A stretch of DNA of 36,357 nucleotides, from the IMG/VR virus record IMGVR_UViG_3300044954_000058, positions 1 to 36,357 of that record. One strand, written 5' to 3'. Position numbers and translations under genes: made by a program. The notes beneath the pieces are model-generated. The model had not been told where the DNA came from, made no database searches, and saw nothing but the letters and a program-made list of their open reading frames with translations. Each line of letters opens with the position of its first letter. Positions within the stretch are counted from its first letter, which is position 1. Origin of the DNA: a virus. Of this stretch, positions 1,686-35,978 are shown piece after piece.

Positions 1686-2009
1686 GTGTCACTTCATCAT
1701 AAACCTATTAAAAATTTTTACCTTGACGGGATAATCAATGATGAGTCTCACATACCTAAATTTAAAGAAGAATATCTTAGACTATTGGTCATACAAATGC
1801 GGGAAACTGGATATGCGCCAAGAATTGACATTGAGCCAGACTTTACGCTAAAATATGATAGTAACAAGAACTGCTTTGAATTTGGTCTTACAGCATATGG
1901 AATGTACGTGGGAAGAAAGAAGGTACAATGGATAATCGCGGTAGATGGGTACAGACCAATACATATACAGAAGACCAAATTAAAAGAGTCCTTATCGGGT
2001 CAGGTGTAA
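1686..2009 (+). CDS. Hypothetical protein between helicase and primase
   Basis: 107 aa with a GTG start 6 bp after the helicase stop. A TATAAT hexamer (1675-1680) lies at the end of the helicase gene, 5 nt before this start, and might be a weak promoter. The protein is a mixed alpha/beta chain with no recognised motif (RIDIEPDFTLKYD and FGLTAYGMYVGRKKVQW are strand-like). Its last 82 nt overlap the primase start in another frame. That is a long overlap even for this compact genome, so one of the two ends may be imprecise. Both frames look coding. Function unknown. Confidence 0.6.
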   Translation: MSLHHKPIKNFYLDGIINDESHIPKFKEEYLRLLVIQMRETGYAPRIDIEPDFTLKYDSNKNCFEFGLTAYGMYVGRKKVQWIIAVDGYRPIHIQKTKLKESLSGQV

Positions 2010-2872
2010 CTATAGAATCAGAAGTCGGCTCAGACTTCATTATATTTTGTCCATATCATAATAACACAAGAACTCCAGCAGGAGAAGTTTCTAAAGAAAG
2101 TGGATTGTTCTTTTGTTTTAGTTGTCAGCAAACTGTAGAACTTCAAGAACTTATTATGAAGATGACTGGCAGATCATATTTTGAATCTATCAGGTTTATC
2201 AAGAGTAAAGAAAAAGAAACAAACATTGAAGATCTTGTAAACAAAAAATTATACAAACCTAAAGAATTTATTCAATATGATGAGTTGTTGATTAAAAGAT
2301 TAAACAATCAAGCGCTAGACTCTCCTAGAGCAATGAGATATTTTGAAGGAAGGCAGATATTTAAGCGATCTGTAGAAAAGTTTAGTCTTGGATATTCTGA
2401 GAAACAAGATATGGTTACTATTCCAGTTCAATCTCCAGATGGTATGACAATTGGTTTTGTTGCAAGAACTGTAGAGGGTAAAGAATTTAAAAATACTCCA
2501 GGACTTCCAAAAAGCAAGATACTATTTAACCTACACAGAGTAAAACAATCAAACAAAGTATATGTTGTAGAATCATCATTTGATGCAATCAGAATAGATC
2601 AGGTTGGTTTGCCAGCAGTAGCAACATTGGGTGCTAATGTATCAAGTTCTCAAATAGAATTACTTAAGAAGTATTTTAATGATGTATATATTGTTTCTGA
2701 TAATGATGATGCTGGAAATACTATGGCAAATAAGTTATTGGATAAACTTGGCGGAAGATCATCAATAATTAAACTTAATTCAAAGTATAAAGACATAGGT
2801 GATATGCTAGATTTTGATATACTTGAGTCATTAAATACTAGTAAGATATCTAGTATTATTGGAGACTTATGA
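1928..2872 (+). CDS. DnaG-type primase (CHC2 zinc finger + TOPRIM)
   Basis: 314 aa. It synthesises RNA primers for lagging-strand replication and should act with the DnaB-like helicase. Seen: a CHC2 zinc finger with C41-x2-H44 and C63-x2-C66, then a TOPRIM domain with VYVVESSFDAI (E215, D219) and the metal-binding DNDDAG around residues 258-263. Length is about half of cellular DnaG and the C-terminal helicase-binding domain is missing or very short. The ATG at 1928 is preceded by AAGAAGG, supporting this start despite the 82 nt overlap with the previous gene. Its stop overlaps the next ATG (ATGA). Confidence 0.9.
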   Translation: MDNRGRWVQTNTYTEDQIKRVLIGSGVTIESEVGSDFIIFCPYHNNTRTPAGEVSKESGLFFCFSCQQTVELQELIMKMTGRSYFESIRFIKSKEKETNIEDLVNKKLYKPKEFIQYDELLIKRLNNQALDSPRAMRYFEGRQIFKRSVEKFSLGYSEKQDMVTIPVQSPDGMTIGFVARTVEGKEFKNTPGLPKSKILFNLHRVKQSNKVYVVESSFDAIRIDQVGLPAVATLGANVSSSQIELLKKYFNDVYIVSDNDDAGNTMANKLLDKLGGRSSIIKLNSKYKDIGDMLDFDILESLNTSKISSIIGDL

Positions 2873-3162
2873 AAAAACATATGCAATGGTGGTATGCAAT
2901 TCAAACAATGTTTAGTAAAAAATATTGGAATAAGCCTAATACGGTAGAGTTTTTTGCTTTTATGACTAAAATTGCAATTATTTTTCCAGGATTATTGTTT
3001 GGTAAACAATTTTGGTGGTTATATATTTTTGCTATAGTTTCAAGTCTTTCTTTAATATGGTCTTCAACAGTTAAAACTTTGCCAACAATTATTTGGTTTA
3101 ATATTTTATGGGTTGTATTAGCAAGTTTGGCAATATTAAAATATTTTGGATTAATATTATGA
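2869..3162 (+). CDS. Small membrane protein next to the halogenase
   Basis: 97 aa, rich in Trp and Phe, with about three hydrophobic segments (roughly residues 28-45, 47-63 and 70-95). It overlaps the primase stop (ATGA) and the halogenase start (ATGA), so it is translated in tight coupling with both. No family recognised. The fixed position directly before a flavin-dependent halogenase suggests that the pair was acquired together, for example to place a substrate or product at the membrane. This is inference from neighbourhood only. Confidence 0.7.
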   Translation: MKKHMQWWYAIQTMFSKKYWNKPNTVEFFAFMTKIAIIFPGLLFGKQFWWLYIFAIVSSLSLIWSSTVKTLPTIIWFNILWVVLASLAILKYFGLIL

Positions 3163-4592
3163 AGATTGTAGTAGTTGGTGGTGGAACTTCTGGATATATT
3201 GCTGCATTGACTATGCAAAAAAAGTTTCCAAATTATGATATTACTGTTATTGAAAGTTCTTCCATAGGAATAGTTGGAGTTGGTGAAGCAACTACAGGAA
3301 ACTTTATACCAATGTTAAAGGAATTTAGTATTGACATTGGATCTTTTATGAAAGAAACTAACGCAACAATTAAAATGGGATCGTTATTTCATAATTGGAA
3401 TAGTGATAATATTGATTTTTTTGTACCAATTTTACTTCAAGAAAAAATATATGACCAAAAATACTTGTCACTAATTTCCACTGGAATTAAAAATGATAAT
3501 AGGTTAATGTACTTAGATGAAATTGCAACTTATGCATTACAAAATAAAATTCCAAAATCTTTTAATAAAGATGGTGGCACTTCAGCAGCAATACACTTTG
3601 ACACATTTCTGTGTGCAAAATTTTTAAAAAATGTTGCATTAAAAAATAATATTAAAATAATTGATGATGTGGTAGTTGGATTTGAAACATTAAAAAATGA
3701 AATAACTGCTATAAAAACTACAAACAATACTATAAGTGCAGATTTTGTGTTTGATTGCTCTGGGTTTAGCAGAATAATTATTGGTAAATTTTATAAAGAA
3801 AAATGGATAAGTTTACAAGATACTCTTCCAATTAATAGTTCGGTGGTTGGTCAGGTTCCAATTAGTTTAAATATTCCATCATATATTAAGGTTAGTGCTT
3901 TAGATTATGGATGGACATTTGAAATACCAACGAGATCAAGGTATGGAATTGGACATAATTTTGATAATAATTTTATTACTGAAGAAGATGCAATTTTAGA
4001 AGTAAAGAAAAAAATTAATAAAGATTGGGAGCCACTAAGATCGCTGAAGTATAATGCTGGATTTTATGAAAATCAATTTGTAGAAAATTGTTTAGCCATA
4101 GGTTTGTCGGGAAGTTTTTTTGAACCGCTAGAGGCAAGTGCATTAATGAATGCTATATCAATTTTAAATGAGTTTTCAAAATCATTTAATGAATATTTTG
4201 ACAACAGGCAAAAATTTAGAAATAAAATTAATAAATATATTAAAAATCTTGAAGAAGATATTGTTTCAGCAATATATATTCATTATGTAACAAATAAACA
4301 AAATAATAGTTTTTGGAAAGATTTTGTTAAAAATAATAAAATGCCAACTCAAATAGCAAATTTTTTAGACGCAATGAATGAAACAGTTCCAAACCCATTG
4401 AAATCAGAATTTGCAAATAAACACGGATCATATTTAAATGATTATTTTATTAGAATATATTATGGAAACGGAATGCGTAATTTTAATGTAATAAATTCAT
4501 ATGATGAAAAGTTATATAATCAATATATTAATATTATTAAACAAAGACATAAACGCTGGATGGATCATAAAGAAATGCTAGAATTATTATAG
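3159..4592 (+). CDS. Flavin-dependent (tryptophan-type) halogenase
   Basis: 477 aa from the ATG overlapping the previous stop (ATGA); a longer reading from 3108 would lose the GxGxxG start and is less likely. Such enzymes use FADH2, O2 and halide to make hypohalous acid, which a lysine passes to an aromatic substrate. Seen: FAD-binding VVGGGTSGY (5-13), VGVGEATTGNF (39-49), the catalytic lysine at K72 in ATIKMGSLFHNW (aligns with K79 of PrnA), WTFEIP (251-256) in place of the usual WxWxIP, and FFEPLEASAL (319-328) with E324 matching the second catalytic residue (E346 of PrnA). PrnA numbering is from memory. The substrate cannot be told. A flavin reductase is not visible in the window, so the host would supply FADH2. 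A+T-rich like its neighbours, with no sign of decay. Confidence 0.88.
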   Translation: MKIVVVGGGTSGYIAALTMQKKFPNYDITVIESSSIGIVGVGEATTGNFIPMLKEFSIDIGSFMKETNATIKMGSLFHNWNSDNIDFFVPILLQEKIYDQKYLSLISTGIKNDNRLMYLDEIATYALQNKIPKSFNKDGGTSAAIHFDTFLCAKFLKNVALKNNIKIIDDVVVGFETLKNEITAIKTTNNTISADFVFDCSGFSRIIIGKFYKEKWISLQDTLPINSSVVGQVPISLNIPSYIKVSALDYGWTFEIPTRSRYGIGHNFDNNFITEEDAILEVKKKINKDWEPLRSLKYNAGFYENQFVENCLAIGLSGSFFEPLEASALMNAISILNEFSKSFNEYFDNRQKFRNKINKYIKNLEEDIVSAIYIHYVTNKQNNSFWKDFVKNNKMPTQIANFLDAMNETVPNPLKSEFANKHGSYLNDYFIRIYYGNGMRNFNVINSYDEKLYNQYINIIKQRHKRWMDHKEMLELL

Positions 4593-4596
4593 CGAG

Positions 4597-4625
4597 TTGC
4601 ACAAAACAACTATCTATGATAAAAT
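4597..4625 (+). promoter_or_regulatory. Sigma70-type promoter for SSB-polymerase-RecA operon
   Basis: TTGCAC (4597-4602), 17 bp spacer, TAAAAT (4620-4625). It lies in the only real gap of the early region (59 bp after the halogenase) and is followed by AAAGGAG at 4640 before the SSB ATG, so the replication genes from SSB on can be expressed independently of the halogenase. Confidence 0.7.
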
Positions 4626-4651
4626 AAATAAACAAACACAAAGGAGAAAAT

Positions 4652-5305
4652 ATGAGCATAGTAAAGGGATTAAAAAATATCAACGCCCTGCTCGACAAAC
4701 CAAAATATGAAGGCAGTGCAATTAAGGTAAGATGGGTTAAGTTGGCTGATGGACAGGCAGCAAAAATCCGTTTCGTAGAAGAGTTGGACGAAGACTCTGC
4801 AAGTTATAATGAATCTCGTGGTCTAGCAGTTGTAGTTGCAGAACACACAAACCCAAAGGATTACAAGCGTAAGGCTGCTTGTACAATTGACACAGAGGGT
4901 CGTTGCTTTGGATGCGAGATGGCTCGCAAAGAACCAAAGAGTGGTTGGAAGGCTCGTATGCGTTTTTATTGTAACGTGCTAGTTGATGATGGTTTAGAAG
5001 ATCCATATATCGCGGTGTGGTCACAAGGCATTAGTAAGCAATCAGCATTCAATACAATTCGTGAGTACGCACTAGAGACTGGAAGCGTATCAAACATTCA
5101 ATGGAAGTTAAAGCGTAATGGACAAGGTACAGAAACAAACTATACTTTAATTCCAAGCAAGCCAGACACAGAGCCATTTAAGTGGGATGGATTTGAATTT
5201 CATAATCTAGATAAGGTAGTACGTGAAGTCCCTTATCCAGAGCAAGAATCTTTCTTCTTTGGTTTTGATACACCTTCAGTGACCTCAACAAACATTGAAT
5301 GGTAA
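4652..5305 (+). CDS. Single-stranded DNA-binding protein, T4 gp32-like zinc type
   Basis: 217 aa. Probable ssDNA-binding protein protecting template strands and organising the replisome. Seen: a basic N-terminal segment, then a zinc site H65, C77, C85, C88 (in HTNPKD, AACTID and CFGC). T4 gp32 is known to bind zinc through His64, Cys77, Cys87 and Cys90, so spacing and position match closely. The tail is not strongly acidic (ends TNIEW), unlike gp32. Strong RBS AAAGGAG and its own promoter upstream, and it is the first gene before the DNA polymerase, as SSBs often are. The name rests on zinc ligands plus context rather than overall similarity I can compute. Confidence 0.7.
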   Translation: MSIVKGLKNINALLDKPKYEGSAIKVRWVKLADGQAAKIRFVEELDEDSASYNESRGLAVVVAEHTNPKDYKRKAACTIDTEGRCFGCEMARKEPKSGWKARMRFYCNVLVDDGLEDPYIAVWSQGISKQSAFNTIREYALETGSVSNIQWKLKRNGQGTETNYTLIPSKPDTEPFKWDGFEFHNLDKVVREVPYPEQESFFFGFDTPSVTSTNIEW

Positions 5306-5308
5306 TTT

Positions 5309-8300
5309 GTGAACTACGTAGGATTACACGTTCACACACACTATTCACTTATGGATGGTGTTGCGACACCGCAAGAATATATTGACAGAGCCGTGAGTCT
5401 GGGTATGCCAGCAATTGCTATCACAGATCACGGCACTCTGTCTGGACACCGCGAGATGTATCGTGCAGCAAAAGCAGCGGGTATCAAACCAATTCTTGGT
5501 ATTGAAGGATACATCGCTACAGATAGATTTGATCATAGAGATAAAGCAGAAAGAACTACTCCACTAGATTTAATTTATAATCATATTGTTATTCTTGCCA
5601 AGAACCAACAAGGTTTAGAAAATTTAAATAAATTAAACGAGATTGCATGGACAGAAGGCTTTTATAAAAAACCAAGAATTGATTTTGCAGTATTAGAAAA
5701 ATATAAAGATGGCTTGATTGTTTTGTCTGCTTGCCTTAGTGGTCTTATTGCAAAGGCTATTGAAGTAGGAGAGTTTGCAGTAGCAAAACAACATATTGAG
5801 TGGTTTAAAAATACATTCAAAGATGATTTTTATATTGAGGTGATGCCACATAACCCAAGCGAAATCAATCTTAACTTAATGCAGTTGGCTGATGAATTTG
5901 GGGTAAAGATTGTAGTAACTCCAGATTGTCACCATTCAGATATAGATCAAAAAGTTATTCAAGAAATGATGCTTATTCTTAATACACATGCCAAACTTGA
6001 AAAAGATGTTAAATATGATAAGTCTAAAAAATATACAGATATGATGGATAGGCTTGATTATCTTTATGGTAAAGATCGTATGATGAGTTTTAATAGGTTT
6101 GACATTCATTTATTATCATATGATGAAATGAAATCTGCAATGACAAAAGATCTTAAGTTTAGAGAAGATATGTTTGCTAACACACTTGAGATTGTAAACA
6201 AAGTTGAAGACTATGATATTAAAGAAGACCTTAATCTTTTACCAGTTCAGTATAAAAATCCAGATCAAGAATTAGCCAATTTAGCATTTGCTAGTTTAGA
6301 AGAAAAAAAACTAAACAGTAACTGGCTTGGAAATGACATATATGAACAAAGGCTTGACGAAGAACTTTATATAATTAGAGAAAAAAAGTTTGCTCCATAT
6401 TTTCTTGTAGTTAGCAATATGATTAATTGGGCAAAGAAAAAAGATATTATGGTTGGTCCAGGACGTGGATCATCTGCTGGATCTTTGCTTTGTTATCTAT
6501 TAGGCATTACAGAGATTGATCCTATTGAGCACAATCTTTTATTTTTCCGTTTTATTAATCCAGAGCGTAATGATTTTCCAGATATTGACACAGACATTCA
6601 AGATTCTAGACGAGATGAAGTTAAAGATTATCTAGTAAAACAATATAGGCATGTTGCATCTATTGCTACGTTTTTACAGTTTAAAGACAAAGGTGTTGTA
6701 CGAGATGTTTCTCGTGTTTTAAATATTCCATTGCCAGATGTAAATAAAGTATTAAAAACTGTAGATACTTGGGATGAGTTCTGCACATCTAGAGCATCTG
6801 CCTGGTTTAGAGAAAAGTATCCTGAAGTGGAGGTATATGGTGAACAACTTAGGGGTCGCATTAGAGGTACTGGCATACACGCTGCTGGCGTTGTCACTAG
6901 TAAAGATCCTATTTTTAAATACGCACCGATGGAGACACGCTCTTCTCCCGGTAGCGATGAGCGTATACCTGTCGTTGCGGTGGACATGGAAGAGGCTGCA
7001 AAGATTGGTCTCATCAAGATTGATGCATTGGGTTTAAAAACATTAAGCGTTTTAGATAGCACAATTAAAATTATTCAAAAAAGACATGGCAAGAAGATTG
7101 ATCTTGTATCAATTGATATGAATGACAAAAATGTATATCAAATGCTTTCAGACGGGTACACAAAAGGAGTGTTTCAGTGTGAAGCAACTCCATATACAAA
7201 CCTTCTTGTAAAAATGGGGGTTAAGAATTTAAACGAACTTGCAGCATCAAACGCTCTTGTTCGACCAGGTGCCATGAATACAATTGGTAAAGATTATATT
7301 GCTCGTAAACATGGTAAACAAAATATTAATTATTTACATCAGGTTATGAAACCAATTACAGAAGATACATATGGATGTATTTTGTATCAAGAGCAAGTTA
7401 TGCTTGCTTGTGTTGAACTTGGCGAAATGACAATGGCTGAGGCAGATAAAGTTCGTAAAATTATTGGTAAGAAAAAGGATGTGAGGGAGTTTGATGTTTT
7501 TAGAGATAAGTTCGTTTCTGGTGCTTCTAGGTTTGTTTCTCCTAATCAGGCGAAAGATCTCTGGCATGATTTTGAAGCGCATGCTGGATACTCGTTCAAC
7601 AAATCACACGCAGTAGCATATTCAACTTTGTCATACTGGACGGCATGGCTAAAATATCACTATCCGCTTGAGTTTATGTATTCAGTTCTTAAGAATGAAA
7701 AAGATAAAGATGCTCGCACAGAATATTTGATTGAGGCAAAGCGTATGGGTATTCCAATTAAACTACCACATATTAATGAGTCTGATCTTGATTTTAAGAT
7801 TGAAGGCAAAGGAATTCGTTTTGGTTTGACTGGCATTAAGTATATTTCAGATAATATTGCAACCAAATATATTGCTGCTAGACCATTTACTTCTTTTAAA
7901 CAAGCGGAAGAGTTTACATTTACTAAAGGTAATGGTGTAAATAGTAGAGCGCTTCAGGCCATGAAGTGCATTGGTGCATTAAACTTTACAGATAATCCAA
8001 CAGACGATAATGAAGTTCGTGCCAACTTGTATGAGTATTTAAATCTTCCTGAGTTTAACATTTCTATTCCACAACATTATTACGCATATATTAATGATGT
8101 AGAAGAATTTGAGGAAAAAGGATCGTTTATTTTGATGGGCATGGTCAAATCAATTAGACGTGGCAAAGGATGGTCTAGAGTGGAAGTGCTAGACAAAACC
8201 GGTTCGGTTGGAATATTTGATGAAGAGCAAACAGTTATTGAAAGCGGTAGGACATATTTAATTCTTGCTTCTGACAACCAAATTATTTCTTATATACCAG

Positions 8301-8621: not shown

Positions 8622-9637
8622 TGACAGTTACAGTAGAAGAAGTATTAGCACAACTTAATCCTAAATTACGTAAAAGCGTAATGTCTGGAGATTCAGTTCC
8701 AGCAACAGAGTATGCAGCAACTCCTAGCATAGGCCTTAATAGGGCTTTAAATGGCGGTTTGCCGTATGGTAGACAGGTGTTGATATGGGGATCTAAGTCA
8801 TCTGCAAAGTCTTCTCTATGCCTTCAGACAATCGCCTTAGCACAAAAGGAAGGTAAGGTTTGTGCTTGGATTGACGCTGAAATGTCGTATGATAAAGACT
8901 GGGCAGAAAAATTGAGCGTGGATACTGCAAAGTTAATTGTTTCAAGGGCTAGAACAATTAATGATATGGTTGAGATTGGTGTTGATTTGATGCAGGCTGG
9001 TGTTGATTTAATTGTAGTTGATTCAATTACATCCTTATTGCCAGCAATTTATTTTGAAAAAGACACTGACGAACTTAAGCAACTTGAAAATACTAAACAG
9101 ATTGGTGCAGAATCTCGTGATTTTAGCAATGCATGGAAAATGATTAACTATGCAAACAATAAGGTTAAGCCAACTTTGTTTATTCTCATTTCTCAATCAA
9201 GAAACAATATTAATGCAATGTATACTAGTCAACAACCTACAGGTGGTCAAGCAACAAAGTTTTATTCATCAACTATTGTAAAGTTGTTTTCATCAGAATC
9301 AGATAATCAAGCACTGAAAGGAAAAATACATGTTGGAGATAAATTTATTGAAGAAAAAATTGGCCGTAAAGTTAGATGGGATTTACAGTTTTCAAAAACT
9401 TCTCCATCCTTTCAATCTGGTGAGTATGATTTTTATTTTAGAGGTAACGATCTTGGTGTTGATTCCATCGCTGATTTGGTTGATACAGCAGAAAGTCTAG
9501 GGATTGTAAATAGGACTGGAGCGTGGTATCAACTTGATGACGGAACTAAAATTCAGGGCAGAGATACTTTTGTAAACAGAGTAAGAGAAGATTTAGACCT
9601 ACAAGACATGATAAAGAATAAAGTAAAGAATGTCTGA
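8621..9637 (+). CDS. RecA-like recombinase
   Basis: 338 aa. RecA/UvsX-family ATPase for strand exchange and recombination-dependent replication. Seen: PSIGLNRALNGGLPYGRQVLIWG leading into Walker A GSKSSAKSS (57-65), in which the usual glycine before the lysine is alanine; a RecA-like AWIDAEMSYD segment; Walker B LIVVDSITSLLPA; and ISQSRNNI near residues 192-199. Length is close to bacterial RecA (about 350 aa) but the C-terminal domain diverges. Start overlaps the minigene stop (TAATG). Its end overlaps the next small zinc protein by 8 bp. Confidence 0.88.
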   Translation: MTVTVEEVLAQLNPKLRKSVMSGDSVPATEYAATPSIGLNRALNGGLPYGRQVLIWGSKSSAKSSLCLQTIALAQKEGKVCAWIDAEMSYDKDWAEKLSVDTAKLIVSRARTINDMVEIGVDLMQAGVDLIVVDSITSLLPAIYFEKDTDELKQLENTKQIGAESRDFSNAWKMINYANNKVKPTLFILISQSRNNINAMYTSQQPTGGQATKFYSSTIVKLFSSESDNQALKGKIHVGDKFIEEKIGRKVRWDLQFSKTSPSFQSGEYDFYFRGNDLGVDSIADLVDTAESLGIVNRTGAWYQLDDGTKIQGRDTFVNRVREDLDLQDMIKNKVKNV

Positions 9638-9806: not shown

Positions 9807-10089
9807 AAGGTCTGAGTCAAAAAGATTGGGTGCAAAGCAACACAAAAATTCAGGCAGAAATGCTAAAAAGGGTGATGCATCTTGGGAAGGCTTTACTATA
9901 GACTTTAAAGAAAGTGCTAAATCTTTTACTCTTAATGCTGACGTATGGACAAAAGTGGTTACGGATGCTATTAAAAATAATAGTGATCCAGCATTGGTTG
10001 TAGTTTTAGGTGAAGGAAATAAAAAAGTTAGACTTGCTATACTAGAAGTAGATGTATTAAGTCAAATTTTAGGAAAATATGATGAATGA
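9799..10089 (+). CDS. Putative Hjc-like PD-(D/E)XK Holliday junction resolvase
   Basis: 96 aa from ATG 9799, chosen because AAGGA at 9785-9789 is correctly spaced; longer readings lack a site. Seen: SKRLGAKQHKNSGRNAKKGD with D26, then GFTIDFKES with D35-x-K37, the arrangement E..SG..KGD..(D/E)xK of small archaeal/phage Hjc-type resolvases, followed by a strand LVVVLGEG. It would cut four-way junctions during recombination or before packaging. Sits next to the RecA-like gene. The catalytic acid is D rather than E in the ExK position. A separate RuvC-like protein is encoded 2 kb downstream, so the roles may differ. Confidence 0.55.
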   Translation: MSERSESKRLGAKQHKNSGRNAKKGDASWEGFTIDFKESAKSFTLNADVWTKVVTDAIKNNSDPALVVVLGEGNKKVRLAILEVDVLSQILGKYDE

Positions 10090-10720
10090 TGAATATAAAA
10101 TTGTAAAATCAAACATGACAGTTTCTAATATTTTTTCTTATAAAGAGTTAAATGATTTATACAAAGACATTTATATAGAAATTGATAAAGATTATTTTAC
10201 TCAAAGTCATCTAGGAAGGCTATATTCTATTTTGTATTGGAAAAAAAATAAAATAGAAAATAATGATAGTGTAGATTTTAAAATTAAAAGTAACCTATCT
10301 GATAAAATTTTAGAATATGCACAACAATGCTCTGATGTTTTGCTACAATTAGAAAGTATTTCTTTTACAAGATATTCTTCTGAATATGGTTTTCCTGAAT
10401 TGCCACCACATGTAGATACTAGTTTTAAGCAGCCCAGACTAACATTTGATATACAGTTAGATGGAAATATCGAATGGCCAATTATTATAGAGGGTAATAA
10501 ATATGTTTTAAAAAATAATGAGGCTCTAGTTTTTTCTGGAACTCATCAAGTTCATTGGAGAGAGAAAAAAATATTCAATAAAGGTGAGTATATTGATATG
10601 TTGTTGTGTCAATTTTCAGAAAATACTGAAAAAGACAATTCTATAAGTTTAGAGTTTACAAAACAAATAGATATAAAGCAAAAAACATTAAAGTTAAAAT
10701 ACGAAAAAGGAGTAATTTAA
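10082..10720 (+). CDS. 2OG-Fe(II) oxygenase-like protein (paralogue A)
   Basis: 212 aa; ATG 10082 has AGGA 7 nt upstream and is preferred to ATG 10079. A jelly-roll type sequence with LPPHVDT giving the H-x-D iron ligands (H110, D112) and a distal H158 in HQVHWRE, as in 2-oxoglutarate/Fe(II) hydroxylases. It shares the block YSSE(Y/F)G.P.LPPH.D ... QLD.N..W ... HWR ... EY..M with the protein at 34912-35538, so the two are paralogues. Substrate unknown. Encoded within the recombination operon, overlapping the resolvase by 8 bp. The normal 2OG-binding Arg/Lys about ten residues after the distal His is not clear, so it might be an iron-binding relative rather than a proven hydroxylase. Confidence 0.65.
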   Translation: MNDEYKIVKSNMTVSNIFSYKELNDLYKDIYIEIDKDYFTQSHLGRLYSILYWKKNKIENNDSVDFKIKSNLSDKILEYAQQCSDVLLQLESISFTRYSSEYGFPELPPHVDTSFKQPRLTFDIQLDGNIEWPIIIEGNKYVLKNNEALVFSGTHQVHWREKKIFNKGEYIDMLLCQFSENTEKDNSISLEFTKQIDIKQKTLKLKYEKGVI

Positions 10721-12168: not shown

Positions 12169-12724
12169 ACCAGCAAAATTTGTTGCCATTGATGCAAGTA
12201 CTAATAGTCTTGCTTTTGCCCTGTTCTTTTTTGGTAATATTGAAATGATTGGAAAGATTAATTTTGAGGGAAAAGACATATATCAAAAATGTATTGATGC
12301 TTCAAAAAAAGTAAACAGTTTTTTAAAAAACGATGCATTTATAAATACTGACTCTATTATTATTGAACATACTGTTTTTATGAATAGCCCAAAAACTGCA
12401 GCAGACTTAGCATTAGTTCAGGGGGCAATTATAGGAGCAGCAGGGGTATCTGGTATAGTTAATGTTGCAAAGGTTTCTCCTATTACATGGCAAAACTATA
12501 TTGGAAACAAAGCATTATCTAAAGAAGAAAAACTTATTATTAGATCAAAAAATCCAGGAAAATCAGATGCGTGGTATAAATCTTATGAAAGAAATATTAG
12601 AAAAGAAAGAACGATTAGGTTTATTGAAATCAATTATGATAAAATTATAGATGACAATGATATAGCAGATGCTTGTGCAATAGGCCATTGGAGTTTAAAC
12701 AACTGGGAGAAGGGGGTATCTTAA
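12152..12724 (+). CDS. RuvC-like Holliday junction resolvase
   Basis: 190 aa, overlapping the previous gene by 17 bp. RNase H-fold acidic residues in the RuvC order: D14 (FVAIDASTNS), E72 (IIIEHTVF), then D168/D170 and D173 (DDNDIADACAIG). In RuvC enzymes these bind two metal ions and cut four-way junctions. Length matches RuvC (about 170-190 aa). With the Hjc-like protein this makes two candidate resolvases in one operon. Ends with TAATG onto the next gene. Confidence 0.8.
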   Translation: MKTIDRPAKFVAIDASTNSLAFALFFFGNIEMIGKINFEGKDIYQKCIDASKKVNSFLKNDAFINTDSIIIEHTVFMNSPKTAADLALVQGAIIGAAGVSGIVNVAKVSPITWQNYIGNKALSKEEKLIIRSKNPGKSDAWYKSYERNIRKERTIRFIEINYDKIIDDNDIADACAIGHWSLNNWEKGVS

Positions 12725-13404
12725 TGCCAGAATTAAATGCTAATATACCACCAATAGAATGTTATGTTCGTGGCAACTTTTTAAGAGATCAAAAAGATTC
12801 GCATGATCAATATTTTCCTTGCATCATTTTTGGCGTTTCAAGCATACCAAACAGAAGTCCTTTATTTCATTTTATAATGGAGGATGGTGGTTTATGGTGG
12901 AGAATGCCAATAAACGCTTTTTGCACACAGCCCGGTGTTGTAGAGGAAGACATTCACAATTTAGTTTTGTGGAATTCTTTTAGTCCTTTTGTTACTGTTA
13001 CAAAATTTTCAAATCTTGCAAATCTTCGTATGTTCTATAGCGATAGAAATAAAAATAAAATTTCTGGCAAATACTTGTTTACACTTGATTGGTACAGCGG
13101 AGATGCAAACAGCCTTGATGACGGATATTCTGAAAATCCTGGACAACATAAATGTGGGCATGTTATTCAAAGAGATGACGGCAATTTTGCTATCCAACCA
13201 AACAATCGTATATTTGTTTTAGAGCCCTCTTTTACAACAAAGCCTGGCAAACAAGTTATTCATCGTTTAATTAATACTAATAAATGGGATGTAGAAGATG
13301 CTGCAAAATGGGTTACAGATGACACAGACTCTTATCATTATAATATTATAAGTAATGATGTTATTATTGAAAGATTAAAATATATGGAGGAAAACGGTAT
13401 ATGA
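12724..13404 (+). CDS. Conserved hypothetical protein
   Basis: 226 aa; the start is the ATG in TAATG with the RuvC-like stop and has GGAGAAGGGGG upstream; the reading from 12673 is an extension into the RuvC-like gene. Strand-rich, aromatic (GGLWWRMPINAF, LFTLDWYSGD), with a single CGH motif and no catalytic pattern that I know. A charged helix closes it (IIERLKYMEENG). Last gene of the recombination operon. Function unknown. Confidence 0.7.
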   Translation: MPELNANIPPIECYVRGNFLRDQKDSHDQYFPCIIFGVSSIPNRSPLFHFIMEDGGLWWRMPINAFCTQPGVVEEDIHNLVLWNSFSPFVTVTKFSNLANLRMFYSDRNKNKISGKYLFTLDWYSGDANSLDDGYSENPGQHKCGHVIQRDDGNFAIQPNNRIFVLEPSFTTKPGKQVIHRLINTNKWDVEDAAKWVTDDTDSYHYNIISNDVIIERLKYMEENGI

Positions 13405-18084: not shown

Positions 18085-18113
18085 TTGACACGATACCCCT
18101 CCAATGGTACAAT
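18085..18113 (+). promoter_or_regulatory. Promoter of the HslV-like gene
   Basis: TTGACA (18085-18090), 17 bp spacer ending in TGG, TACAAT (18108-18113). It shows that the upstream in-frame TTG at 18085 is promoter DNA, not a start codon. Confidence 0.8.
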
Positions 18114-18141
18114 TAATTTAGGTGCTATTAAAGGGGTATTT

Positions 18142-18666
18142 GTGACTTGTATTGCTGTTGTTCGCAAAGAAGAAAAAATTTATATGTCTGGCGAACGTGG
18201 TGTATCGGATGATGATATCATGCTACCCTCATCAACACCAAAGGTATGGCAATTAGGTCCTTACATTATGGGGTATGCAGGAAGCATGGATGGCGAACGC
18301 ATTCGTCATAATTTCAAACCATCAATACCATCTGGAAATAATTTACAAAAGTTTATGTATACAAGATTTATTAAAGAACTAAGAGACTTTTATCAAGACT
18401 GGTGGGTAGATACAACAAAGGATTCTGATTTTGGAATGATTATTTGTGTTAAGGGTGAAATATTTGAGCATGGTGCAGCAGACATGTCACTAACACAATA
18501 CAATAATGAATATCTTGCAATGGGCTCTGGATCATCATATGCTATGGGATATTTATATGCTACAGAAAATCAAAAGGATGCACGTAAAAGATCTATTGGT
18601 GCAGTAGCATCTGCAATAAAGTTCTCAACATCCTGCATGGGTCCTATTGACACAGTGAGTATTTAA
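18142..18666 (+). CDS. Proteasome-beta/HslV-like Ntn hydrolase
   Basis: 174 aa from GTG 18142, preceded by AAGGGG. The start follows from the promoter at 18085-18113 and gives an N terminus MTCIAVVRKE in which Thr2 would become the N-terminal nucleophile once Met is removed. Counting from that Thr as residue 1, Glu17 (in MSGERG) and Lys33 (TPKVWQ) fall exactly on Asp17 and Lys33 of HslV/proteasome beta subunits; later blocks MGYAGSMDGE, AMGSGSSYAMG and CMGPIDTVSI also match the family. In cells these form self-compartmentalised proteases with an ATPase partner; no HslU-like partner is in the window. Function could be virion maturation or degradation of host proteins. Confidence 0.8.
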   Translation: MTCIAVVRKEEKIYMSGERGVSDDDIMLPSSTPKVWQLGPYIMGYAGSMDGERIRHNFKPSIPSGNNLQKFMYTRFIKELRDFYQDWWVDTTKDSDFGMIICVKGEIFEHGAADMSLTQYNNEYLAMGSGSSYAMGYLYATENQKDARKRSIGAVASAIKFSTSCMGPIDTVSI

Positions 18667-21352: not shown

Positions 21353-21565
21353 ATGTTAATCAATGACCTAAAAACAATGGAAGATATTGTTGCTAAAAAT
21401 AATAATTTAATTTGGGATGGATGGAACGTTGTTCATCTTTTTAAATCAAACGTTGCAATGTTTAAAACAAATGGTGTTTTTATTGATGGCAACTGGTATA
21501 CTAAAACAGTTTATTCTCCAGATCAAAACGGATGGAATATAAATAAAAAACATCTGGAATCATAA
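21353..21565 (+). CDS. Hypothetical small protein
   Basis: 70 aa, AGGAAA before the ATG, aromatic and strand-rich (LIWDGWNVVHLFKSNVAMF, GNWYTKTVYSPDQNGW). No family recognised. Shares its stop with the WhiB start (TAATG). Confidence 0.6.
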   Translation: MLINDLKTMEDIVAKNNNLIWDGWNVVHLFKSNVAMFKTNGVFIDGNWYTKTVYSPDQNGWNINKKHLES

Positions 21566-21849
21566 TGAACAGACATTTATGGAAAGAAGATGCTGCCTGC
21601 TTAGATTATGACACTAATTTATTTTTTGATAAGTATGAAGATAATCCAAACATAAGACATGGTGTAGATAATGTTTGTTTGGCTTGTCCTGTAGCAAGAA
21701 TATGTTTTGCTGTTGGAATTTCTGACAAAGAATATGGTATTTGGGGTGGTGTATACTTAGAAAAGGGCAATGTATCTAGAGAGTTTAATAGTCATAAAAC
21801 TAAGGCTAGATGGGCTGAGATTTGGGAAAACTTAACGATTGAAGCATGA
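21565..21849 (+). CDS. WhiB-family Fe-S transcription factor
   Basis: 94 aa. WhiB-like (Wbl) proteins are confined to Actinobacteria and their phages; they bind a 4Fe-4S cluster and the sigma factor. Seen: C12, C38, C41 and C47 in the order C-x(n)-C-x2-C-x5-C, then GIWGG (58-62), the turn needed for sigma binding. The C-terminal DNA-binding basic patch is present but weak (HKTKARWAEIW). Phage WhiB proteins such as TM4 WhiBTM4 are known to inhibit host WhiB2; the same sort of host control is a reasonable guess. TAATG upstream and overlap with the next gene. Confidence 0.9.
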   Translation: MNRHLWKEDAACLDYDTNLFFDKYEDNPNIRHGVDNVCLACPVARICFAVGISDKEYGIWGGVYLEKGNVSREFNSHKTKARWAEIWENLTIEA

Positions 21850-30015: not shown

Positions 30016-30672
30016 TTAAACATAATATTTTCCATCATCATAAAAACCTTTATTGGAAATAAATGATGGCAAAACATATCTTAACGGTCCTTCACCAGGA
30101 GCATATACACCATGCGTAAAATCTTCGCTCCCAGGAAAAATAATTAATGATTTTGCTGAAGGCTTTATAACAAAGTCTTTTTTTGAAAAAAATAATTCTC
30201 CATCTAAATAGTCATCATTTAAATATATAATTGCTGCATAAACAATTGATGGATCAGTATACTGATCATAGTGCTCAACAAGCGGAACACCAGAATATTG
30301 TCTTTGAACTACTCCAGGACCTTTAAAATCTAATGAATCTGGTAAAAAAAAATTAATTTTTTTATTTAAAACATTACATACAGATCTTGTTTGATGGTTT
30401 GTAAGTAAGTTTGTATTTTTATCTTTCCAATTTTCTGTTATTTCAATTTTTCCTTCTTTGAGAAGTTTTTCAACATCATCAGTTCCAAATTTTTTTATAC
30501 AAAAACTTTTTAAACCTTGATAATATTCAAACTGCCAGTCTTTTTCAGATAAAGATTCTATATAGTTTAACAAAATAGTTACTTGATTATCATCTAAAAA
30601 ATTTTTAATTATAAAAAGTTGATCTATTGGCTCTTCTACTTCGTAACCAACAAAACTATTTTTTGTTAACAT
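30016..30672 (-). CDS. 2OG-Fe(II) dioxygenase (prolyl-4-hydroxylase-like)
   Basis: 218 aa. Full iron and co-substrate set: H134-x-D136 (VEHYDQY), distal H187 (FTHGVYAPG) and R198 (LRYVLPSF) for 2-oxoglutarate, with LNDDYLDGELFF between, as in P4H-type hydroxylases. Likely hydroxylates a protein side chain or a small molecule; target unknown. RBS GAGGAG and an extended -10 (TGATACAAT) upstream. Convergent with the HTH gene at 29837. Strongest of the three oxygenase calls. Confidence 0.88.
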   Translation of the reverse strand: MLTKNSFVGYEVEEPIDQLFIIKNFLDDNQVTILLNYIESLSEKDWQFEYYQGLKSFCIKKFGTDDVEKLLKEGKIEITENWKDKNTNLLTNHQTRSVCNVLNKKINFFLPDSLDFKGPGVVQRQYSGVPLVEHYDQYTDPSIVYAAIIYLNDDYLDGELFFSKKDFVIKPSAKSLIIFPGSEDFTHGVYAPGEGPLRYVLPSFISNKGFYDDGKYYV

Positions 30673-34911: not shown

Positions 34912-35538
34912 TTATACATTATATCGTTCTCTATAAACTTGATCAATTATTTCATTTGGGGTTTTAGTTTGATATGGTTTGCAGCCAGCACAGTTAGGTC
35001 CATGTCCATTAGAATCTGGACGATGAAATGGTATAGGATTGGCTTGAACTGCATTGGCACTTTTTTTATTAACTTCTTTAAATCTAAAAAATATCATTGT
35101 GACATACTCGTTATCATTAAATGTTTTGTATGGTCTCCAATGGGCCATCTCATTGGCATTGAACAAAAGAGCAGAATTATCCTCCATAGGATATAAGTCT
35201 AAATTTAGGCCAATATCCCAACTGGTGTTTGAATCTAATTGGAAGTTAATTATATATCCGTGTTCAGCGTTATCAAAATGCGGGGGGAGATTAGGAGTAC
35301 CAAACTCACTACTATATGTACAACTCATAATAGAAGAAAGAACTAACTCAGTCTCAAACATTGTATTTGCTATAGAAGAAACCTTGTTTGGGACAATGCC
35401 TATATTTGTCAATGTTTTGCCAAGTTCTCTACCATATTCTGGATCATGGTGTTTTGGGGAATTATCTACACCTGATGACAATAATTTTAATTCATGATCT
35501 AAAAATACGTTGTTTATCTTAAAAGTTTTATTGTCCAT
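34912..35538 (-). CDS. 2OG-Fe(II) oxygenase-like protein (paralogue B)
   Basis: 208 aa from ATG 35538, supported by TATAAT 7 nt upstream; an upstream ATG at 35568 would precede the promoter. Iron ligands H87-x-D89 (LPPHFDN) and H133 (MAHWRPY). The block YSSEFGTPNLPPHFD, QLDSNTSWDI, NSALLF and HWR is shared with the protein at 10082-10720. Extra C-terminal tail with C183-x2-C186 (GHGPNCAGCKP), absent from the paralogue, which may bind metal. Substrate unknown. Confidence 0.68.
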   Translation of the reverse strand: MDNKTFKINNVFLDHELKLLSSGVDNSPKHHDPEYGRELGKTLTNIGIVPNKVSSIANTMFETELVLSSIMSCTYSSEFGTPNLPPHFDNAEHGYIINFQLDSNTSWDIGLNLDLYPMEDNSALLFNANEMAHWRPYKTFNDNEYVTMIFFRFKEVNKKSANAVQANPIPFHRPDSNGHGPNCAGCKPYQTKTPNEIIDQVYRERYNV

Positions 35539-35545
35539 GATATAA

Positions 35546-35551
35546 ATTATA
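35546..35551 (-). promoter_or_regulatory. Leaderless -10 for 2OG oxygenase paralogue B
   Basis: Minus-strand TATAAT, 7 nt before ATG 35538. Confidence 0.55.
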
Positions 35552-35978
35552 TAGCATATTGTGGCCAATAAGGACCAAGTAAGTGCTTGATATCCCCTCG
35601 CAAATAGGCGTATAAGGGCTTATATGAGTATCGTAAAGGGAGTGTTTGGATGTTTTATATCTTACTAAAATATTATTGTTTGGTGTATAGTGGAGGAAAG
35701 TGGAGAATAGTGGAGAATTGAACATTTTTTATAGAGGGTTCGTAATGTCCAAACACCAAACACTTATATCTTCAAACACCATATATCCCTATACCACATA
35801 TATCTATGTTTGTCAAATCACCAAACAAACATAACAATTTGATAACTTTATTTGCCAAACATGGCTATAATATTCTGGGATTTTTTGACAAATTTCGTAA
35901 TAAAATAATATAAATGTTTGATAATGTTTTATAATCAGGGAAAAAGTTTTATATTTCGTAATGTTTTATATAGGGGTA
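35552..35978. other. Repeat-rich non-coding stretch
   Basis: About 430 bp with no credible gene. It holds AGTGGAG three times (about 35689-35718), TGTTTGGTGT and its complement ACACCAAACA in several near copies (35677-35686, 35753-35762, and around 35773-35780 and 35817-35830), three TTCGTAAT motifs (35739, 35894, 35955) and TTGACA (35885-35890) with TATAAA 18 bp on. Pattern suggests protein-binding iterons, an origin or a regulatory hub; nothing decides which. Confidence 0.6.

Follow-up and report, generated by a model that had tools for sequence, protein, structure and literature searches.

Why a virus should carry a gene for a flavin-dependent halogenase (FDH) and one for a small membrane protein (TM) between two replication genes, and whether the two genes belong together, is the question raised by this locus. 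The window, the whole stretch of 36,357 nucleotides that was analysed, contained both as intact ORFs on the plus strand. TM (2869..3162) encodes a membrane protein of 97 aa, and FDH (3159..4592, start ATG at 3159) an enzyme of 477 aa in the Trp_halogenase superfamily. This variable junction was flanked on the left by the DNA primase gene (1928..2872, phrog_47) and on the right by the SSB gene (4652..5305, phrog_9721), both on the plus strand as well. ATGA stop/start overlaps were found at the primase/TM and TM/FDH junctions. The earlier note had described such overlaps on both sides of FDH, which is correct towards TM but not towards SSB, where the genes are separated by a plus-strand spacer of 59 nt (4593..4651) containing an RBS, AAGGAGA, and a sigma70-like site that matches weakly, in 9 of 12 positions. 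The two cassette genes have a lower G+C content (25.5 and 26.3%) than the window (32.9%); the value of 26.3% belongs to FDH, which had a GC3 of 14.9%. Because a WhiB gene was present at 21565-21849 and the nearest relatives of SSB and primase were found in Streptomyces, Rhodococcus and Mycobacterium phages, the host group is probably the actinobacteria, in agreement with the actinobacterial phage proposed before. Further genes of the window encode an HslV/proteasome-like peptidase (18085-18666, phrog_1040, 64.5 bits) and three 2OG-Fe(II)-oxygenase-like proteins (10079-10720, 30016-30672 and 34912-35568), only the second of which had a Pfam match, PF13640.

The assignment of FDH to its family was borne out. 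It matched Pfam PF04820 Trp_halogenase with 253.6 bits (cut-off 21) over profile positions 1-445 of 458, PHROG_2928 'tryptophan halogenase' with 310 bits and 30 PDB halogenase sequences with E values from 1e-28 to 2e-44, headed by Th-Hal (5lv9). An open frame of 477 codons with a family match of E 5e-75 is far beyond chance. Judged by these matches, FDH belongs to the flavin-dependent halogenase superfamily. The FAD-binding motif of the GxGxxG type was located as GGGTSG at residue 7, and G7, G9 and G12 were invariant in an alignment of 26 phage FDHs. The same applied to K72 within NATIKMG, the catalytic lysine that guides hypohalous acid. The claim that all catalytic positions are kept held for GxGxxG, K72 and EPLE, but residue 324, previously named as the glutamate, is Leu. 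The catalytic Glu is E325 of E322-P-L-E325-A-S-A (PrnA E346), which in the alignment to 5lv9 and 6nsd falls opposite the second Glu of their EPLEST. It is followed by Ala-Ser-Ala in the window FDH, compared to Ser-Thr-Gly in Trp halogenases, the halide site in PrnA. Ala-Thr-Ser/Ala at this position was common in phage and bacterial relatives. The strict WxWxIP of PrnA/RebH-type Trp halogenases is replaced by WTFEIP (W252-T-F-E-I-P257), and WxFxIP occurred in 15 of the 159 FDHs compared (TM-linked, other IMG/VR-phage and bacterial). WTFEIP was thus discarded as a sign of special chemistry or of a different substrate or halide. As WxWxIP or its variants are also missing from some FDHs (PMC8407142), the membership claim was limited to the superfamily.

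The surroundings of SSB were compared across 80 relatives with 78-99% identity from an SSB scan of IMG/VR. The gap between primase and SSB measured about 30 nt, without an insert, in nearly all SSB-selected loci. FDH occupied this slot in only four non-duplicate contigs of the SSB panel, namely L004, L003, L005 and L027 (L004 and L002 are the same contig, and the FDH of L027 is cut by the contig end). L006, with no insert in the junction, had DnaB and SSB 92-94% identical to those of the window. Identities between the window and L085, a relative recovered through the TM scan, were 94% for DnaB, 93% for primase, 99% for SSB, 96% for DnaE, 84% for TM and 32% for FDH. For L003, they were 95-99% for DnaB, SSB and DnaE, 86% for primase and 56% for FDH. 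By these comparisons, TM-FDH is an optional cassette, with FDH exchanged between near-identical phages. When 98 different 150-nt sequences preceding SSB were compared, 78 had a site resembling TTGACA/TATAAT in at least 10 of 12 positions, in contrast to 6 of 95 control stretches, suggesting that SSB as a rule has its own promoter. L006 carried a perfect TTGACA-N17-TATAAT ahead of SSB; the window site, with 9 of 12, is at chance level taken alone. Since the junction is mostly empty and SSB appears to be separately promoted, the proposal that the halogenase belongs permanently to the replication programme was rejected. TM in the junction was located upstream of the SSB promoter site in some loci and downstream in others, suggesting that it probably entered the junction, or moved within it, at least twice. 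In another relative, L064, further moron genes (5993-6754 and 8666-9400) had been inserted between dnaB and primase and between SSB and dnaE, so that the replication block offers several insertion points.

TM was predicted to consist of an N-terminal amphipathic segment and three membrane helices (22-44, 51-64 and 72-92). An AlphaFold model built with 40 diverse relatives showed the same plan, with pLDDT 79.9 and pTM 0.60. W20, N24, E27, P40, G41, W49, W50, S59, K69, P72, T73, N78, W81 and K91 were invariant in 40 relatives, and residue 34 was K or R in all of them. E27, K/R34, S59 and N78 fall inside predicted helices. Eight of the 97 residues are Trp, with W64 nearly invariant. No match to TM was obtained among Pfam, NCBIfam and PHROG profiles, and Foldseek returned no significant fold match for the first or the deeper model. 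The first model gave repeated weak, insignificant rows with SemiSWEET, PnuC and the mitochondrial pyruvate carrier. With the deeper model, these rows sank into the noise, and ion channels, MIT domains and others scored equally. Alignment with PnuC by hhalign reached a probability of 0.3%, and the other profile tests were empty. TM shares size and three-helix plan with these proteins, but the likeness has no sequence support and is not favoured by the better model. Two scans confirmed 384 and 532 stretches related to TM, which came from hundreds of viral contigs; no relatives were found in named phages or, at the sensitivity of the contig scan, in 84,980 prokaryote genomes. The 80 bacterial and 13 named-phage FDH loci contained no TM near FDH. 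The cyanophages Syn1, S-PM2 and S-H38 have small genes immediately preceding their FDHs; these were considered as TM relatives and dismissed, their translations being unrelated. Three arrangements were observed: TM alone in the primase-SSB junction, TM-FDH in this junction and FDH-TM elsewhere.

Whether TM is tied to FDH was examined in the whole records behind the loci, which were searched for both genes. The SSB-selected (n = 32) and terminase-selected (n = 20) records had been picked without regard to either gene. These 52 records comprised three with FDH and TM, two with FDH only, none with TM only and 47 with neither (Fisher p 4.5e-4, to be read as a guide, since the records are related and mostly fragments, with G028 and G041 as close kin, so that Fisher values overstate independence). 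FDH was present in 13 of 18 TM-selected records, and the five records without it were fragments of 26-40 kb. All ten TM-positive records of at least 40 kb in the SSB-, terminase- and TM-selected panels contained FDH (G028, G031, G034, G036, G037, G038, G041, G043, G045 and G141), compared to one of 25 TM-negative SSB-panel records of this size. In five records, TM and FDH lay apart (G028, G034, G038, G041 and G141), with separations of up to 38 kb among G034, G041 and G028. Among FDH-selected records, 17 of 50 had TM and 33 had none, suggesting that many phage FDHs manage without TM. In these panels, TM would therefore imply FDH, while FDH does not imply TM. Adjacent pairs with less than 200 nt between the genes were in the order FDH>TM in 59 cases and TM>FDH in 14, overlapping loci being counted more than once. 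The tied membrane partner of the earlier note was thus upheld. As to its question whether the 97-aa gene invariably adjoins FDH, it does not, but a genome with this gene almost always has an FDH.

The partners differed greatly in how far they had diverged. TM pairs with 84-90% identity accompanied FDH pairs with only 27-30%, and over 68 adjacent pairs the identities of TM correlated with those of FDH by rank at only 0.19. In a tree of 172 FDH rows, TM-linked FDHs were spread over no fewer than four deep clades, including one on the VirX1 side, with the deep forks tentative as the tree was calculated with FastTree only. The window FDH grouped with those of L005 and L003 (support 100), then with the other junction FDHs (97) and outside the VirX1 clade. 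TM and FDH are, as far as the compared genomes indicate, genetically linked across several arrangements and deeply separated FDH clades. Because TM does not vary along with its FDH partner, its role more likely concerns a component shared by FDH reactions, such as halide, product, by-product or reductant, than a specific FDH surface.

Two FDH-positive, TM-negative phages occurred in the unbiased panels, L003 and L450/G130, with FDHs of the window's clade. In both L003 and G130, a CMD/AhpD-like gene was located between primase and FDH, in the place of TM. These genes (L003:5980-6507, with a PF02627 match, and L450:2579-3118) carry the motif CxxCxxxH and lie directly upstream of FDH. AhpC and AhpD homologues were also close to FDH in L170 (2787-3838), as were AhpC/AhpD-like ORFs in L156, suggesting peroxide as a side product of FDH in vivo. 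Other neighbours were observed repeatedly. A phrog_3704-like gene of the window (12673-13404; phrog_3704 is labelled 'ferredoxin') had no Pfam match, and of 30 loci examined, 13 encoded proteins of similar appearance close to FDH, including L176:6562-7350 and L200:2455-3246. A similar gene sits after VirX1 in Syn10. Its product is a candidate second FDH partner. In 7 of 30 loci, FDH was preceded, immediately or at a short distance, by a gene for a DUF2061 membrane protein (for example L168:1416-1667 and L169:2475-2723, with PF09834 in L169). Phage contigs L253, L255, L256 and L259 contained three or four tandem FDH genes, for which multi-step halogenation or diverging paralogues are possible.

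The locus is best explained as an optional, exchanged TM-FDH cassette in which TM would be a membrane helper of phage halogenation in general, a reading to which we give an even chance. Recombination would have placed the cassette at the helicase-primase/SSB junction of an aquatic actinobacteriophage and exchanged it repeatedly. FDH would be made during genome replication, translationally coupled to primase and TM. It would use O2, a halide and FADH2 supplied by a reductase of the host, forming hypohalous acid near the flavin, and K72 and E325 would guide the halogenation of an electron-rich aromatic small molecule. TM would serve halogenation generally and no one FDH in particular, most likely by moving a common factor (halide, product or by-product) across the membrane and, as a second choice, by localising the reaction at the membrane. 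A helper against general by-products such as peroxide fits the AhpD-like gene replacing TM in two phages. More specifically, TM might be a phage-specific transporter or channel for small molecules or halide, or another membrane factor, in a two-component system with interchangeable FDHs; this version is put forward tentatively, as less likely than not.

Among the alternatives, TM might be a physical partner of FDH, an anchor or assembly factor that binds the enzyme and recruits it to the membrane, places it near its substrate or links it to an electron source located in the membrane. The ATGA coupling of the two genes, their adjacency in two gene orders and their co-occurrence are consistent with this. 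The alternative is nevertheless rather doubtful, given the near-constant TM beside strongly diverged FDHs with little co-variation, the genomes in which the genes are far apart and the FDHs of the same clade without TM (L003 and G130).

FDH could also act in vivo as a flavin monooxygenase or oxidase of the same fold. Phe254 in place of Trp, Ala-Ser-Ala for Ser-Thr-Gly and a clade with no member of known activity agree with such a role. It is unlikely, as the catalytic Lys and Glu were conserved despite divergence of the clade to 56-69% identity, and the WxFxIP form is found elsewhere in the family.

That TM and FDH are unrelated morons of a shared mobile neighbourhood or of shared phage lineages, with linkage by hitch-hiking, is decidedly improbable. 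Consistent with it, a mosaic genome structure is typical of phages, each of the two genes can be missing within one and the same clade and many contigs have TM alone in the primase-SSB slot. However, such contigs of at least 40 kb have FDH elsewhere (G028, G034, G038 and G041), none of the 52 unbiased records had TM but no FDH, and the FDHs joined to TM belong to several deep clades, with the gene order varying among them and with TM inserted at two different points with respect to the SSB promoter site. Very improbable is that the Trp-rich TM is itself the halogenated substrate: W20, W49, W50 and W81 are invariant and W64 nearly so across all FDH partners and indole halogenation is known for the family, but Trp enrichment at the membrane interface is common, a near-identical TM would need to fit very different active sites and no precedent in the family was found in the literature examined.

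Cyanophages have for years been a known source of phage halogenases, to our knowledge with no role assigned to them. A phage-only TM tied to deeply separated FDH clades provides a genetic handle on this role. In the two-component reading, a constant membrane part combined with an enzyme swapped among co-circulating phages is expected if different phages make different halogenated products. An FDH exchanged as a cassette between near-identical phages suggests that selection acts on the target of halogenation. The gene comparisons suggest an undescribed two-part phage system of an enzyme and a constant membrane protein; searches of the open literature returned no description of the TM membrane partner.

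Compared to known systems, the best PDB matches of the window FDH were the bacterial Trp halogenases Th-Hal (5lv9), PrnA and RebH, which have Ser-Thr-Gly and the second Trp of WxWxIP, both replaced in the window FDH. Bacterial FDHs had no TM relative nearby in the 80 bacterial loci. The cyanophage halogenase VirX1, cited beforehand as a precedent, was confirmed as Cyanophage Syn10 CPUG_00131 (PDB 6QGM), a viral FDH that prefers iodide. Gkotsi et al. 2019 reportedly described an Fx.Px.Sx.G motif in their work on VirX1. Like the window FDH, VirX1 is a PF04820 FDH of an aquatic phage with Lys and Glu kept, and the whole core could be aligned. It differs in being only 27% identical, in its clade of the FDH tree and in its motifs WVWNIP and EPLESTG. 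Its neighbours are a second FDH and a phrog_3704-like gene, with no TM in the stretch examined. FDHs are common in cyanophages, with 20 of 153 (PMC10452541). The top-scoring named-phage FDH was the 'tryptophan halogenase' of Pelagibacter phage HTVC008M, with 35% identity over 83% of the protein; it adjoins phytanoyl-CoA dioxygenase and terminase genes and has no TM. A further known case is Actinomycetia phage DSL-LC01, a WhiB-bearing lake actinophage with an FDH-family gene, ORF137 (tryptophan 7-halogenase homologue). Its product is 23% identical to the window FDH, with no TM in the stretch examined. This halogenase (L178:4977-6548) carries WVSKIP and EPLDFSS, with Asp replacing the catalytic Glu, and is possibly inactive or altered. 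As an annotated halogenase in an actinophage was already on record with DSL-LC01 (PMC10611076), the enzyme alone does not make the new setting that had been claimed for it, and the new part of the locus is the membrane partner TM.
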